DNA of 64,000 nucleotides from assembly GCF_009834915.1 (NCBI RefSeq), contig NZ_WVHS01000001.1:806001-870000 (forward strand), given 5' to 3'. Of this stretch, positions 49,824 to 56,118 are shown in pieces (the stretch's first letter is position 1; every line of letters begins with the position of its first letter). The notes under the pieces were generated by a model. It was not told the DNA's origin, ran no database searches, and saw only the letters and a program-made list of their open reading frames with translations. This DNA is from Hufsiella ginkgonis. GTDB taxonomy: Bacteria > Bacteroidota > Bacteroidia > Sphingobacteriales > Sphingobacteriaceae. Both the position numbers and the translations under genes were made by a program.

Positions 49824-50288
49824 ATGCCAGACAAAAAGATCACGGTATTATACGTAGATGACGAAGATAACAACCTGGTATCCTTTAAGGCTACCTTCCG
49901 CATAAAGTACCATGTGCTTACAGCCATAAGCGGGGAGGAAGCCGTAAAACTACTCGAAACAAAACCGGTGGAAATTATCATCACCGACCAGCGCATGCCC
50001 AATATGACGGGCGTAGAATTTCTTGAAAAAGTGCTGGTAAAATACCCGGATCCCATGCGCATCCTGTTAACCGGTTATGCAGACATGAACGCGGTGGTTG
50101 ATGCCGTAAACAAAGGGAAGATCTTCCATTACCTGGCAAAGCCGTGGAACGAAGAAGAGCTCGACATGACCATCCGGCGGGCGTACGAGGTATACCTGGA
50201 AAAGATCCGGCTCCGCGAAATGAACGAAAAACTTTCCGTGTCTAATGACCAGTTCGAGTTCCTGCTAAGGCAAAAATTACTCTCATAA
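49824..50288 (+). CDS. Response regulator (receiver domain)
   Basis: The 154-residue protein is a single receiver domain: VLYVDDEDNN (acidic pocket), phospho-acceptor Asp in IIITDQRMPN (about 53), TGYAD switch Thr region and conserved Lys in YLAKPWNEEEL, followed by a C-terminal helical stalk (YEVYLEKIRLREMNEKL). The segment DQRMP...KPWN is typical of receivers linked to cyclic-dinucleotide or kinase modules, here without an output domain. It is convergent with, and overlaps by 6 bases, the five-gene signalling operon on the other strand, whose REC-kinase (50756) has a closely related receiver. Confidence 0.9.
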   Translation: MPDKKITVLYVDDEDNNLVSFKATFRIKYHVLTAISGEEAVKLLETKPVEIIITDQRMPNMTGVEFLEKVLVKYPDPMRILLTGYADMNAVVDAVNKGKIFHYLAKPWNEEELDMTIRRAYEVYLEKIRLREMNEKLSVSNDQFEFLLRQKLLS

Positions 50289-50711
50289 CGAGCCCGCCAG
50301 GGGTTCGCCGGCAGTAGCGTCTATTTCGCCCAGCAGCGCCAGTAAGGCTTCGGCGGTGATGGGCTTGTCGAGTAAATGTTTAACCGATTTATAACCGGAG
50401 ATCCGAGAAAGATCGTTTTTATTCATCGTAGAAGTAAGCGCCACCAGCAGGTAGCTCCGCTGCACGTCCGGGGGTAATTGCTCGAAGGCTTCCACGAAAT
50501 CAAACCCGCTCACCACCGGCATCAGCACATCCAGCAAGAGAATGGCCTTCGGCTGGTCGGTCACGGCGCCCTGCTGCGTAATATATTCGAGCGCCCTGGC
50601 AGCTTCGGTAAAGGCAATTACCTGCTCATTTTCAATGGTATGCTTAATCATTTTCTCGGCGATAAAGCAATCCAGCTCACTGTCGTCGATCACTATAAAA
50701 CGATGTTTCAT
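50283..50711 (-). CDS. Response regulator, CheY-like (receiver only)
   Basis: The 142-residue protein is a single receiver domain: FIVIDDSELD, phospho-acceptor Asp in ILLLDVLMPVVSGFDFV (about 61), switch residue in LVALTSTMN and Lys in HLLDKPI. There is no output domain. It is the last gene of the operon that begins with the acyltransferase-like gene at 55613, 44 bases after the REC-kinase gene. It could relay phosphate from the upstream kinases or sequester it. Confidence 0.88.
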   Translation of the reverse strand: MKHRFIVIDDSELDCFIAEKMIKHTIENEQVIAFTEAARALEYITQQGAVTDQPKAILLLDVLMPVVSGFDFVEAFEQLPPDVQRSYLLVALTSTMNKNDLSRISGYKSVKHLLDKPITAEALLALLGEIDATAGEPLAGSL

Positions 50712-50755
50712 CTTAAGTAATTATTCATTTTGCGGTAAGGAGGTATCCTAACTCA

Positions 50756-51841
50756 TTATTTATTGGGAATGGTGATGGTGAAAGTGGTCCCTTCGCCCAG
50801 CACAGAATCCACTTTAATGTCGCCGTTTAACTTGATCAATGCATCTTTTACGTTGTATAAGCCAAAGCCCGAACCTGCTTCCTGCGAAGTTGCACGAAAA
50901 AACAGGGTAAAGATCTCTTCCGTATGATGCCGGGGTATCCCGATCCCGTTATCGGCAACCCAAAAAGTGGCGGTGCCCCTGGATACTTCTATGCGCAGGG
51001 CCACCCGCTTGTTATCCAGCTCTTTCCGCTGGTACTTAAACGCGTTCGACAACAGGTTGTTTAAGATCAGCTTCAATATAAAAGCATCACAGCGGAAAGG
51101 TTCCTGCTGGTTTACCTCCGCCGTAAAACTGATCTGGTGCGCATTCGCATACACTTTGTACATGTCCTGCATCCCGGCTACCAGGTAGTTCATGTCGATC
51201 TCGGTAAGCTGCAGCTCTCCGCGCTGAAGCGTATAGTAATCGTGCATGCTGAGGATGAAAACATCAAGCTTTTTCACCGATTTCTCCATCAGCGCCAGCA
51301 TCTCTTTCATCTCGGTGACGCTGTTCAGGTTGGCCGCTACGTTAATGGCGCCAAGAATCCCTGATAACGGGCCGCGGATGTCGTGACTTACACTGTAAGC
51401 AAACTTATCCAGCTCGTTGTAAGCGATCTTAAGCTCCTCGTTCTTTACGGTAAGCAGGGAATTGGAAATGTAAAACTTGTTCGCCTCTTCGATCGCCGAC
51501 ATGATATCTGCATCGTTCCACGGCTTTTTCACATACCTGAATATATGGCCATGGTTTATGGCGTCGATCACAGATTCAATGTCAGTATACGCCGTAAGCA
51601 GGATGCGCACGGGCAGCGGGAAACGGCTGCGCATTTCTCCAAAAAACTCGACGCCGGTTTTTACAGGCATACGCTGATCGCAAAATATCACATGAATATC
51701 CGGGTGCTTTTCGAGGATGATCTCCGCCTCCGTTGTATCGAGCGCGGTGAACACCTGGTAGTCGATGCGGAACGAGGCCTTAAAACCTGTCAGGTTATTC
51801 GGCTCATCGTCTATATATAAAATCTTAATTTTTCCCGGCAT
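50756..51841 (-). CDS. Hybrid receiver-histidine kinase
   Basis: The 361-residue cytoplasmic protein has an N-terminal receiver (ILYIDDEPNN, Asp in IFCDQRMPVK near 54, Lys in YVKKPWND), a HisKA helix with phospho-acceptor His in SVSHDIRGPLSG (about 155) and an HATPase domain (NLLSNAFKYQ, DNGIGI, GSGFGLYNV). A receiver before the kinase suggests that it is itself switched by an upstream kinase, probably the 7TMR-DISM kinase encoded 21 bases upstream. It has no membrane segment. Confidence 0.9.
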   Translation of the reverse strand: MPGKIKILYIDDEPNNLTGFKASFRIDYQVFTALDTTEAEIILEKHPDIHVIFCDQRMPVKTGVEFFGEMRSRFPLPVRILLTAYTDIESVIDAINHGHIFRYVKKPWNDADIMSAIEEANKFYISNSLLTVKNEELKIAYNELDKFAYSVSHDIRGPLSGILGAINVAANLNSVTEMKEMLALMEKSVKKLDVFILSMHDYYTLQRGELQLTEIDMNYLVAGMQDMYKVYANAHQISFTAEVNQQEPFRCDAFILKLILNNLLSNAFKYQRKELDNKRVALRIEVSRGTATFWVADNGIGIPRHHTEEIFTLFFRATSQEAGSGFGLYNVKDALIKLNGDIKVDSVLGEGTTFTITIPNK

Positions 51842-51862
51842 CTGTATTTATACCTTATATCT

Positions 51863-54016
51863 TTAATTAGGTTGCTTCACCCGGTGAATTACCGGTAATT
51901 CAATCGTAAACTCAGTGCCTTGGCCGGGCGCAGATTCCAACCGGATCTGCCCGTTATGTTTGCGGATGGTATTATAGGAGATAGACATCCCCAGCCCCGT
52001 TCCCTCTCCCACATCCTTGGTGGTAAAAAAGGGCTCATAGATCTTTTTCCGCGTATTTTCATCCATGCCCGTTCCGTTGTCGCGGAAGCGGATCAATACA
52101 TGATCTCCCTCATGAATGGTGGTAATATGCAGCATACCGCCTGCCTGTTCGCCAAACTTCTTATTTACTGCATGGATCGCGTTGGTCAGGATGTTTAGGA
52201 ACACCTGGTTCAGCTTGCCCGGGTAACATTCTATAAGCGGCAGGTTGCCGAACTCTTTTACCACGCCGATCCGGTTATTCAGCAGGTTATTAATGATCAC
52301 CAGCGTCGAATCGATCCCTTCATTAATATCCGCTTTTTTAAGATCATTTTCGTCTAACCGTGAAAATACACGCAATCCTTTTACAATTTCCGCCGTGCGT
52401 GACGCGCCCTCGTGTATTCCCTTTAACAAATGGCTGATCTCCGTTTTCAGGTAATCGAAATCGAGCTCTTCCTTATAGGCCTCGATCTCGCGGATCTTGT
52501 CTTCCGCGGAACTATCCGAAATGCCCACTTTCTCGATCGCGGCGATGGCATCCAGCAATATATCCACGTCCCGCCTGAGCGGGTTTACGTTGGAAGTAAC
52601 AAAATTGATCGGGTTGTTGATCTCGTGGGCGATACCGGCGGTCAACTGACCGAGCGAGGCCATCTTCTCTGATTCTACCAGCTGGCTTTGTGTTTGTTTC
52701 AGGTCTTCGAGCGTGACGCTTAACGACTGGTTTGTTTGCTTCAGCTCATGTGTACGCTCCTGCACTTTTTCTTCCAGCATTACGTTCTGTTCGCGGATAA
52801 TGCGTTCGTTCTCCTTGGCGGTGGCAAGCGCTTCGGCCTGCGATGCTTCCTTTTCTTTCTTCAGGGTATTTATCCTGTCGGCCAGACCGAAGGACAGGAG
52901 CGCCATCTCTATGGCAGAAGCCGCTTGCATGGAATAGCTCGTAAATGTGTTATAAGGCAGCACGCCGTAGTCCTTCAACAGGAAAATAATGGCGCCGCCT
53001 AGCAGTACAGACCATGCAGAAAAGAAGAACTTCGCCGGTGCGTAGCCTTGCCGCATGATCATGAACGAAACCGAAAGCACCGTTACAGTTAATAAAGTAG
53101 TGGTTCCCTGCATTACCTTAAAACCCGGTTGCTCTTGCCCGAAGGACGTTAACAAGATGCCGATCCCGAAAAGCCCGACCAGCGCCGTAAGCACATAATT
53201 GGTTTTACGGGCGTTTTCGCGGGTGTGCAAAAAGTCTTTGGTAAACAGCAGCGCACCCATCCCGCTGAGGCAGGCAAACAGGATCACGCTTTTCACCTCG
53301 AACGCGGTATTACCCGGCCATAAATACTGAAACGTATATCCTTTAATACCGACCTGCGTGAGCCCCGCAAACACTACGTAGAGCACGTAATACAGGTAGC
53401 TCTTGTCGCGTACCGAGAAAAAGATGAATAGGTTATACAATACCATGATGAGCACAATGCCCAGGTAAATGCCGGTAATAAGATTTTCGCGGTTCAGTTT
53501 CTCCCACAGGCCCGTGGGCCGCGAGATGGTGGTGGGAACGATCACCTGCTCGGCGCTTTTTATACGCAGGTAGTACGTCTTTGTGATATTTCGTGGCACG
53601 TCCAGGTCGAAAATATAGCTTGGGTGCGCATATTTTCGCTGTGTGAAGGGTTTGTCTTCGCCGAGTGTAACGGGTGTATAACGGTTGTGATCGTCCTGCA
53701 CGAACAACTCCACCTCATCCAGGATGGGATACGCCACCTCCAGCAGGAAATGGCCGTCGCTGCTTTTATTCAGGACCGAAAACCTCAGCCACGCGCTGCC
53801 GGGAATGGTACCCAGGTTAACCACATCCTGGGTAGCGGGCCTAAACTCCCTGTTACGCAGCGCCTCCGTCAGGGTTATCTCGGTTACAGGCTGGAGCACT
53901 TCAAATTGCTTGCCCAGCGTAATGATGCCGGTAGTGTCTGTTAATACCACCTGCGCCCGGCCAGCGGTACCGTTAAATAACAGGACCGCAAAGAAAAAGG
54001 TAAGCTGTTTAAACAT
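51863..54016 (-). CDS. 7TMR-DISM sensor histidine kinase
   Basis: The 717-residue protein has a signal peptide, an extracellular 7TMR-DISMED2 jelly-roll domain (about 30-165; WLRFSVLNKSSDGHFLLEVAYPILDEVELFV), seven membrane helices (about 180-375), a coiled coil (EKEASQAEALATAKENERIIREQ), a HisKA motif with His in GQLTAGIAHEINNPINF and an HATPase domain (DNGTGM, GTGLGM). DISMED2 domains are related to carbohydrate-binding modules and are thought to sense small outside ligands. It is the third gene of a five-gene operon after a methyltransferase and an acyltransferase-like gene, which could make the ligand. Confidence 0.92.
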   Translation of the reverse strand: MFKQLTFFFAVLLFNGTAGRAQVVLTDTTGIITLGKQFEVLQPVTEITLTEALRNREFRPATQDVVNLGTIPGSAWLRFSVLNKSSDGHFLLEVAYPILDEVELFVQDDHNRYTPVTLGEDKPFTQRKYAHPSYIFDLDVPRNITKTYYLRIKSAEQVIVPTTISRPTGLWEKLNRENLITGIYLGIVLIMVLYNLFIFFSVRDKSYLYYVLYVVFAGLTQVGIKGYTFQYLWPGNTAFEVKSVILFACLSGMGALLFTKDFLHTRENARKTNYVLTALVGLFGIGILLTSFGQEQPGFKVMQGTTTLLTVTVLSVSFMIMRQGYAPAKFFFSAWSVLLGGAIIFLLKDYGVLPYNTFTSYSMQAASAIEMALLSFGLADRINTLKKEKEASQAEALATAKENERIIREQNVMLEEKVQERTHELKQTNQSLSVTLEDLKQTQSQLVESEKMASLGQLTAGIAHEINNPINFVTSNVNPLRRDVDILLDAIAAIEKVGISDSSAEDKIREIEAYKEELDFDYLKTEISHLLKGIHEGASRTAEIVKGLRVFSRLDENDLKKADINEGIDSTLVIINNLLNNRIGVVKEFGNLPLIECYPGKLNQVFLNILTNAIHAVNKKFGEQAGGMLHITTIHEGDHVLIRFRDNGTGMDENTRKKIYEPFFTTKDVGEGTGLGMSISYNTIRKHNGQIRLESAPGQGTEFTIELPVIHRVKQPN

Positions 54017-54027
54017 CAGGATGGCGG

Positions 54028-54792
54028 TTATTTAACACAGGTAGTTACCACCACTTGTATAGAACAGGCAAAATATCCGCTTGCATCCGCGTCTTTCATC
54101 GCCCCTAAGAAAATGTCGTGCTCTTCCTGGCTGATGAAGCCGTTATCGGCTGTTTCTTTCAGGATACGTTCAATCCACAGGTATTCATTCGCCTCGGCCA
54201 GCGTTCTGATCACAAACGGGAAAAGCTCCAGCCGGATATCCCGGAAACCGGCAGCTTCCAGGTAGCCCGTAAGCTTGCGCGCCGCCAGGCCGTTATTAAT
54301 CTTTACATCAGTAAGGTAACCGATCACTTTCCGCTCGATGGGCAGATGCGCATTGCAGAACGACAATCCGGGCCAGTCTGTTTCCACCAGCACGAGCGGA
54401 TGATCGTGTTCCAACACCCGGTGGATCTCCTTCATTACCGCATCGGGCGCTGTAAGGTGCTGCACAAGGCGTTCGGCGCGCACGCCTTGTACGGTACCAT
54501 CGGTAAAGGGGATCGGGCTGGCTTCCGAGAGAATAAACTCCACCTGCTTATTGTCATAAGCAGCTGCTTTACCCTTCGCCAGCATCTCCGGGTCGTGGTC
54601 GATGCCGAAAACCTTTACCTGGCCGCCCAGCAATTCCGACAGTTTGAGCACGTCCATCCCCGTCCCGCAGCCGAGGTCTATCACGGCGCCTTTCCTGATA
54701 GCGGTAAAAGGCTGGTACGATTGTTCCTTCAGGTTCTTTAAAAAGCGGCCTGTTTGTTCCAGGTAACTGATATTGTAATGTTTAGCAGACAT
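54028..54792 (-). CDS. Class I SAM-dependent methyltransferase
   Basis: The 254-residue protein has the Rossmann SAM-binding motif AVIDLGCGTGMDVLKLS (about 37-53), the acidic ribose-binding Asp in VFGIDHDPEM, and FTDGTVQGVRAERLVQHLTAP as the later motif seen in small-molecule (UbiE/PhcB-like) methyltransferases. The C-terminal part is helical and may bind the substrate. It starts 11 bases after the acyltransferase-like gene and ends 11 bases before the 7TMR-DISM kinase gene. Modification of a signal or lipid metabolite is a reasonable inference; the substrate is unknown. Confidence 0.88.
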   Translation of the reverse strand: MSAKHYNISYLEQTGRFLKNLKEQSYQPFTAIRKGAVIDLGCGTGMDVLKLSELLGGQVKVFGIDHDPEMLAKGKAAAYDNKQVEFILSEASPIPFTDGTVQGVRAERLVQHLTAPDAVMKEIHRVLEHDHPLVLVETDWPGLSFCNAHLPIERKVIGYLTDVKINNGLAARKLTGYLEAAGFRDIRLELFPFVIRTLAEANEYLWIERILKETADNGFISQEEHDIFLGAMKDADASGYFACSIQVVVTTCVK

Positions 54793-54803
54793 GACAGGTA
54801 GGT

Positions 54804-55613
54804 TTAAAACAGGTTGAGGTTACGTTCGTTGACGGCAATACTTGTAAAGTTCTTCTTTGCGTTGGCGATCACTTCATCGAGGTGCCAGTTTTCCAGCCCC
54901 GGAATGAGAATATCATAATGGATCTCGATATTTTTCTTGCGGAGCACCTCGGTTTTCACCAGGTTAAGGTTCTCACGCAGTTTAAATATTGCCTCACGGT
55001 CCTCAGATTGCGCGGTTTTAAGGGTGGCAACGTCTTTAAGGATCATGGTGGTGGCCAGCAGGTCGAGCTTAGGGTAATAAAACGTGCCCTCGTTGCCGAT
55101 ACTTGTTTCGATCCCATACCCGACGCTCTCGGCCATTTTAACGGTATACGGCGCACAAAGCGCGAATAGCGATTGCAGGCCGATCTGGGTAGAAATAGCT
55201 ACCGCCGCCCTGGTTAAAAATATGCTCCCGATGCCGTACCCGGCAATTTCGCGGGAGTTCCAGAGGCCGCAGATCTCGCCCGTGCCGTGGCGGGCGTGCT
55301 GGTATACCAGGTCGAATATCGAGGGGTCCAGCGCACCGGTGGCCTGCTCTACAGGCAGCGGCTCGGTTCCGCCGGCAACATGTACGCGGGCGCCGCCATA
55401 TACTTTCTCTCCATCGAGCGACTCCACGATAAGTACGAAAGCGGCCGGGTTCCTGGTCCATTCGTGTTTGTTAGAGGTTACTTTAGTTACACCGATATTG
55501 GTGAGCACGTGCGTATGCCCTTCTACGAATAAGGCGCAGGCGGCCGGGTCGTCTGTCGCCCGAAAAGCGCGAAGCCTTACAACAGGATTTTCCTTATTTA
55601 ATGTGTAGTCCAC
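54804..55613 (-). CDS. GNAT-fold acyltransferase-like protein (FeeM/LuxI-type possible)
   Basis: The 269-residue protein uses a GTG start (MDYTLNKENPVVRLRAFRATDD). The centre TGEICGLWNSREIAGYGIGSIFLTRAAVAISTQIGLQSLFALCAPYTVKMAESVGYGI has the layout of acyl-homoserine-lactone synthases and N-acyl amino acid synthases: Glu/Arg on a strand, Gly-rich loop, long helix, strand, then a helix and Gly. The C-terminal 70 residues are a separate helical, charged extension. It is the first gene of the operon with methyltransferase, 7TMR-DISM kinase, REC-kinase and REC protein. The acyltransferase call is a fold-level judgement, not a sequence match. Confidence 0.6.
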   Translation of the reverse strand: MDYTLNKENPVVRLRAFRATDDPAACALFVEGHTHVLTNIGVTKVTSNKHEWTRNPAAFVLIVESLDGEKVYGGARVHVAGGTEPLPVEQATGALDPSIFDLVYQHARHGTGEICGLWNSREIAGYGIGSIFLTRAAVAISTQIGLQSLFALCAPYTVKMAESVGYGIETSIGNEGTFYYPKLDLLATTMILKDVATLKTAQSEDREAIFKLRENLNLVKTEVLRKKNIEIHYDILIPGLENWHLDEVIANAKKNFTSIAVNERNLNLF

Positions 55614-55895
55614 AAGCTGAAGCGTGAAAGCGTGAACAGGGACCTTTACCAGGAACCCCGGCCGGCTAATTTAGTATTTTGGTTGTACGTGTTTACGCGA
55701 CACTTTGTTACCGCCCAACATAACTTTTACGCTACATGCGATGATCTTAGACCGTTTGCGCACCGGCACCGTTTATGTCACAATTGTTTTACCTGTACCC
55801 GCGCATCCGGCTGTTTTTTTGCGGCAGTATGTGGCGAAACGCAGTACTTTTAACCTGCGCTGATGTTCGTTCGGGAAACGAGCAGGGCTTACGTG

Positions 55896-56103
55896 GATCG
55901 GGAAGAGTATTGGGAAGCGGGAAAAGGGAAATGGAGAATAGGAAATGGAGAATAGGAAACGGGGAATAGAAAACAGGGAATAGGAAACAGAGAATAGAGA
56001 ATAGAAAACTGAAAACAGAGAAAAGAAAATGGGAACAGGCCGTTGTTCATTCCCTGTTTTCTATTCTCTATTCTCTATTTTCCGTTTTCCGTTTTCTATT
56101 CTC
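55896..56103. repeat. Purine-rich heptamer array with inverted pyrimidine arm
   Basis: From about 55896 to 56036 the words GGAAATG GAGAATA GGAAATG GAGAATA GGAAACG GGGAATA GAAAACA run in 7-base register (about 20 units). From 56049 to 56103 the complementary words TTTTCTA TTCTCTA TTCTCTA TTTTCCG TTTTCCG TTTTCTA follow, so the array folds back on itself around GGAACA..TGTTC. The region 55614-55895 shows nothing else I can support; it contains the start of the signalling operon. Confidence 0.88.
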
Positions 56104-56118
56104 CCAACAAGCACGATC

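Follow-up and report, generated by a model that had tools for sequence, protein, structure and literature searches.

The question raised by this locus is whether a bacterium that encodes a possible signal synthase together with a sensor kinase also perceives the product of that synthase. The locus lies in the window, a stretch of 64,000 nucleotides of Hufsiella ginkgonis (contig NZ_WVHS01000001.1, positions 806,001 to 870,000), from a nearly complete genome of 5.2 Mb. Five genes on the minus strand, here called A to E, are separated by gaps of 11, 11, 21 and 44 bases: a putative N-acyl amino acid synthase (A), a methyltransferase (B), a 7TMR-DISM sensor kinase (C), a receiver-kinase hybrid (D) and a single-domain receiver (E). 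A second single-domain receiver (F) is convergent with E, their final 6 bases overlapping. An earlier sequence-only reading had placed all six reading frames correctly, and its domain calls for B to F were matched by Pfam. Gene C combines an extracellular DISM domain (PF07696, 1.3e-27), a seven-transmembrane (7TM) part (PF07695, 7e-54) and a kinase (PF02518, 4.5e-24), gene D a receiver, a HisKA and a HATPase_c domain. The same reading had proposed a circuit that makes, methylates and senses an acylated metabolite. We consider it rather probable that the locus is a self-contained cassette by which the cell makes and senses its own N-acyl amino acid signal, with specificity blocks that can be exchanged; the physical linkage of enzyme and sensor genes keeps us from a firmer statement on self-sensing.

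Related loci were examined in rounds of 28, then 80, then 66 more. The cassette set comprises 133 non-redundant Bacteroidota loci holding both A and a near-complete C; loci in which C could not be read, because of a contig end or a frameshift or in the very distant relative L058, stand outside it. Of 399 genomes of the family Sphingobacteriaceae, 209 (about half) have gene A, as do 75 of 395 genomes of the class and 12 of 296 sampled across the phylum; almost always there is one copy per genome. One locus (L259, G1012:C55) carries a tandem pair of A genes behind a single ThiF-nitroreductase gene. C stands beside A in all 133 cassettes, D is found in 123, F in 104 and E in 87. The genes are co-directional in nearly all loci, with median gaps of 9–27 bases, and the A–C linkage spans many families of the class. 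Recurring in 133 non-redundant loci, the arrangement of A, C and nearly always D is not due to chance. The connection of synthase and 7TMR-DISM phosphorelay is conserved across the class; the expected cohesion of all five genes holds for A, C and nearly always D, whereas B is exchanged in most genomes. The slot of B contains a ThiF-nitroreductase fusion in 58 cassettes (type TN), ThiF alone in 50 (type T), a methyltransferase like B in 22 (type M) and an ICMT-type enzyme in one; it is empty in two. ThiF, encoded in 108 cassettes, is located at the place of B or before A.

The sensory half of C is inherited together with the slot enzyme. This co-inheritance is a direct observation, as are the gene content, the fold predicted for A and the exchange of the tailoring enzyme. 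In the initial 80 complete cassettes, identity in the 7TM part of C was 64 % within type M and 37 % between M and ThiF types; for the extracellular domain the values were 49 % and 28 %. Smaller differences were observed for the kinase half of C (69 versus 64.5 %), A (66 versus 59 %) and D (64 versus 55 %). Along C, the gap between both comparisons amounts mostly to 20–32 points at residues 60–380 and to 2–7 points past residue 420; the type-specific divergence stops sharply at residue 390–420, just behind the last transmembrane helix. Trees of the 133 cassettes, calculated quickly with a simple model so that single branches should not be over-read, require a single change between M and non-M for the sensory half, against 14 each for the kinase half and A. 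The nearest sensory-half neighbour never crosses the line between M and non-M, with zero exceptions in the 133 cassettes. Independent pairs on supported branches all followed this line, 10 of 10 on the tree of A (p 0.002) and 8 of 8 on that of the kinase half (p 0.008). For a set of 87 cassettes, monophyly of type M was rejected for the kinase half (p-AU, approximately unbiased test, 8e-6) and for A (5e-4), whereas M formed a supported clade on the sensory-half tree. In three distantly related M cassettes of other families (L056, L269, L272) the sensory half is nearest to M types and the kinase half to ThiF types. Two Mucilaginibacter-type loci show an exchange at the same site: between L068 (M) and L091 (ThiF-nitroreductase), identity is 70–86 % in the flanking genes, 82 % in D, 86 % in F and 84 % in the kinase half, but 42 % in the 7TM part and 29 % in the extracellular domain. 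The DNA of L296 and L294 is 74–80 % alike as far as the 3' end of A; this similarity resumes near codon 391 of C, and the swapped block lies in between. A distinction of T and TN by the sensor was considered and rejected: no clean tie was found, with 8 changes on the sensor tree versus 13–15 on the others. Close pairs of ThiF cassettes (L118/L134, L089/L091) have sensory halves of only 20–40 % identity next to D and kinase halves of 80–86 %, which suggests several further specificity groups.

What A might synthesize was approached by profiles and by structure, and only the latter was successful. Gene A had no match in Pfam, NCBIfam or the PDB sequences. The Pfam profile FeeM (PF21926) matched neither A nor its relatives, nor any other protein of the host genome; proteins with this profile occur in Bacteroidota. 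An AlphaFold2 model based on an alignment of 63 relatives was confident (predicted local distance difference test, pLDDT, 88.9; predicted template modelling score, pTM, 0.87). Its closest solved structure is FeeM (2g0b, Foldseek E 3.9e-8), ranked top also by VIA-align (Z 16.3, root-mean-square deviation 2.6 Å, 181 residues aligned). The coenzyme A (CoA)-dependent acyl-homoserine lactone (AHL) synthases follow just behind, BjaI with Z 15.9, RpaI with 15.4 and LasI with 15.1, all within about 1 Z of FeeM. The model thus has a LuxI-like fold, and the GNAT fold in LuxI/FeeM layout that had been read from the letters is supported by it. In the structural alignments A shares 8–14 % identity with the structures of the FeeM/LuxI group. 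Because PF21926 is not matched, A is classed as working like a FeeM-type synthase, not as a member of the family. Invariant in the A family are F29, H33, W52, G73-G74-x-R76, E113-x-C115-G-L-W118-N119 and G125-x-G127-x-G129; the last motif looks like the acyl-CoA loop of GNAT proteins. TyzA, a proven N-acyl-tyrosine synthase of a mycobacterial oxazolone-lipid pathway, also has FeeM and BjaI as nearest structures (PMC10404671). Judged by its model, A is probably an N-acyl amino acid synthase.

The slot enzymes point to the carboxylate of such a product. The ThiF proteins of the cassettes belong in NCBIfam to the Rv1355c family (NF005901); a fused form (L036) reached 833 bits at a cut-off of 476, while ThiF-only forms obtained 442–467 bits and stay under the cut-off because the model covers both domains. 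In the phylum sample, all 7 genomes with an Rv1355c-type ThiF match above 390 bits have this gene adjoining A and C. Rv1355c is TrzS, which adenylates, cyclises and desaturates the N-acyl-tryptophan from the neighbouring acyltransferase TrzA to an oxazolone lipid (PMC12856293). The aspartate in the C-D motif of the ThiF domain is retained in more than 97 % of the cassette proteins and presumably corresponds to TrzS Asp217. In a single case (L199:8620-9261) the gene between A and C encodes a membrane carboxyl methyltransferase of the ICMT family (PF04140). ICMT enzymes methylate the carboxylate of lipidated cysteine, so this unrelated third type in the slot, by analogy, again points to the carboxylate. 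Since ThiF enzymes of this family work on the free carboxylate of N-acyl amino acids and ICMT enzymes likewise on a carboxylate, it is an economical guess that B caps a carboxylate as well and that its product would be an uncharged methyl ester of the size of an AHL. Rv1355c-type ThiF was not found in the window genome. The proposed methylation therein probably applies, in place of a cyclisation; as a general feature it does not stand, for most relatives have the ThiF-type cyclase instead. Similar enzymes were observed on plasmids outside the cassettes. On a plasmid of Nitratidesulfovibrio, FeeM, ThiF and nitroreductase parts are naturally fused in this order (L173:3080-6004), which further suggests that such enzymes operate in a single line; genes for THxN family PEP-CTERM proteins come next (L173:3080-8550 in all). 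On a Streptomyces plasmid (L170:4170-7084) a GNAT-like domain is fused to an Rv1355c-type ThiF, ahead of a β-ketoacyl-ACP (acyl carrier protein) synthase III gene. Rhodococcus plasmids (L172:1872-3563, L175:851-2761, L176:829-2564) have a TrzA-like gene between an Rv1355c-family gene and a GGDEF gene. A signalling role of trzAS in Mycobacterium tuberculosis has merely been suggested, from cyclic di-GMP genes nearby (PMC12856293); by analogy, the GGDEF gene may be a second hint at signalling.

From these observations we draw the following inferences on the reactions, the ligand, the route of the phosphate and the output. A would move an acyl group, probably from acyl-CoA, onto an amino acid. 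The slot enzyme would next act on the N-acyl amino acid. B of the window genome would most simply esterify its carboxylate; the TrzS/OxzB-type ThiF of most relatives, to which a flavin desaturase is fused in some and not in others, would adenylate this carboxylate and cyclise it to an oxazolone. Once outside the cell, the product would bind the periplasmic/7TM half of C. C in turn would govern a phosphorelay that runs through the receiver-kinase D and ends at the two lone receivers, E and F. The phospho-acceptor residues are in place (C His464; D Asp55 and His153; E Asp61; F Asp55). E and F are single receivers and a DNA-binding output gene is not visible in the set, in agreement with the sequence-only reading.

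Several observations weigh against this reading. Slot gene and 5' half of C adjoin each other, so that any recombination tract replacing the enzyme must carry the sensory half with it up to the point where homology resumes; slot and sensory half, adjacent and unalike between the types, are hardly exchangeable separately. Co-inheritance alone does not prove ligand binding, and physical linkage, as its main rival, is the main caveat. Within ThiF cassettes, the partial Mantel correlation of ThiF and sensor is positive where ThiF adjoins C and absent with A between; depending on adjacency, it cannot separate function from linkage. In ThiF-first cassettes, in which A adjoins C, the sensor tracks A (r 0.70) and not ThiF (r -0.06), which fits linkage and also a specificity role of A. 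Sensor shuffling is common in these genomes, where the kinase module is joined to many different input parts. For the cassette, neither a DNA-binding output nor an exporter nor autoregulation is visible. A has no sequence-level tie to FeeM or to the TrzA-like Rhodococcus protein; a profile-profile comparison with the latter family, represented by only three near-identical sequences, yielded 131 collinear columns and was not significant. The model of B (pLDDT 90.1) is nearest to 3mgg, a structure of unknown function, and resembles thereafter natural-product methyltransferases of many kinds, including the C-terminal methyltransferase LahSB, pointing to no one substrate.

The strongest alternative, though an unlikely one, is that A and the slot enzyme form a lipid or secondary-metabolite operon with its own regulator. 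Its product would be a membrane lipid, a surfactant or an antibiotic, and C would sense something else, such as the envelope state, a precursor or the product of a competitor. The sensory half would follow the enzyme merely as its neighbour on one recombination tract: in both gene orders it is the gene adjoining C that tracks it, and slot and sensory half are too diverged between the types for a crossover, so that homology resumes only in the kinase half. N-acyl amino acids also double as surfactants and antimicrobials (PMC12856293, PMC12479983). However, such an operon leaves unexplained why type-specific sensory halves arose and are kept across families, as in L056, L269 and L272, and why such a synthase was never found without the same kinase in the 133 cassettes. 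The self-sensing part of the earlier proposal is supported indirectly, by co-segregation of the sensory half with the tailoring enzyme, with adjacency as its main competitor. It is distinctly improbable that A is a true AHL synthase, or acylates another amine, while B methylates an unrelated substrate. BjaI, RpaI and LasI are within about 1 Z unit of FeeM, but a ThiF cyclase is needless for an AHL, yet the 108 ThiF cassettes have one from an N-acyl-amino-acid family; a LuxR-type gene is not located beside A, and A was unmatched by the Autoind_synth profile. That C to F form an ordinary phosphorelay, with A and B co-located without a functional tie, is hardly credible. In its favour stand at least nine further 7TMR-DISM proteins of the genome; against it, C accompanies A in 133/133 non-redundant cassettes of many families, and A occurs in about half of the family genomes.

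The cassette resembles several known systems in parts. Oxazolone-lipid pathways (TrzAS and TyzACB of Mycobacterium, OxzAB of Pseudoalteromonas) likewise have an N-acyltransferase of FeeM/BjaI fold beside ThiF (PMC12856293, PMC10404671). Their nitroreductase-type desaturase is fused or separate, and the cassette relatives share the Rv1355c family; in contrast, the window has a methyltransferase in the place of the cyclase and a dedicated 7TMR-DISM phosphorelay. In Stieleria, clusters for N-acyl tyrosine also have a synthase (NasY) near methyltransferase, ThiF and nitroreductase genes; there methyltransferase and ThiF occur together and a sensor kinase is not described, whereas in the cassettes one excludes the other (PMC12479983). 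The LuxI/FeeM structural group (BjaI 5w8g, LasI 1ro5, FeeM 2g0b) shares the fold of A, but A lacks detectable sequence similarity and a LuxR partner. LadS/RetS/SagS-type 7TMR-DISM kinases, of which the known examples sense outside ligands, have the same layout of DISMED2, 7TM and histidine kinase as C. We know of no 7TMR-DISM kinase that is encoded with a signal synthase. The quorum-sensing loci Agr and ComQXPA of Gram-positive bacteria share one pattern of enzyme and receptor kinase. In ComQXPA, a modifying enzyme stands beside a receptor kinase with a hypervariable membrane half and a conserved kinase half (PMC4008528). C shows the same combination of a variable membrane half, a conserved kinase half and a linked enzyme for a candidate signal. 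The signal of ComQXPA and Agr is a peptide, whereas the cassette has small-molecule enzymes and neither a peptide gene nor a DNA-binding response regulator; with gaps of 11–44 bases there is no room for a peptide precursor gene between enzyme and kinase. Enzymes and kinase are each of a known kind. For their union in one cassette and for the enzyme-plus-sensor block, no precedent was found in the open-access literature searched, subscription papers being outside the search.

Table 1 Features of the locus; positions are those of the window
Feature	Positions	Strand	Basis
Gene A: putative N-acyl amino acid synthase, GNAT fold, FeeM/LuxI-like; 269 amino acids; GTG start	54804..55613	-	AlphaFold2 model and PDB matches
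Gene B: class I S-adenosylmethionine-dependent methyltransferase, swappable tailoring slot	54028..54792	-	PF13649 9.5e-17
Gene C, sensory half, residues 1-390: signal peptide, 7TMR-DISMED2, 7TMR-DISM_7TM	52847..54016	-	Pfam
Gene C, kinase half: HisKA-like His464, HATPase_c; not exchanged	51863..52846	-	Pfam
Gene D: receiver and histidine kinase, putative second stage of the phosphorelay	50756..51841	-	PF00072, PF00512, PF02518
Gene E: single-domain receiver	50283..50711	-	PF00072 3.7e-7
Gene F: single-domain receiver	49824..50288	+	PF00072 3.8e-19
Intergenic stretch upstream of A, expected place of the promoter	55614..56118	-	no conserved gene

In the stretch upstream of A, the Bacteroidota-type -7 motif TAnnTTTG was absent, and sigma-70-like sites were no commoner in the promoter scan than in shuffled sequence. 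The host genome has about ten 7TMR-DISM proteins. One kinase module has a dozen close relatives there, which are joined to inputs of very different length; this kinase family is expanded and shuffled. For another 7TMR-DISM kinase of the host genome, chosen as a control, clear orthologues were absent.

To our knowledge, the usual LuxI/LuxR pairs are mostly lacking in Bacteroidota. The chances seem evenly balanced that the cassettes represent a widespread quorum sensing of this phylum, in which 7TMR-DISM kinases would read N-acyl amino acids with a capped carboxylate, as methyl esters in the window genome and as oxazolones in others, and swaps of enzyme plus sensor would form discrete specificity groups. 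If this is true, oxazolone lipids gain a receptor and 7TMR-DISM kinases a self-made class of ligands. Three open questions meet in the cassette: the role of oxazolone and N-acyl amino acid lipids, the ligands of 7TMR-DISM kinases and the cell-cell communication of Bacteroidota. It makes them testable in harmless soil bacteria that can be cultured (Pedobacter, Mucilaginibacter), with the natural swaps of enzyme and sensor at the same site as built-in controls.

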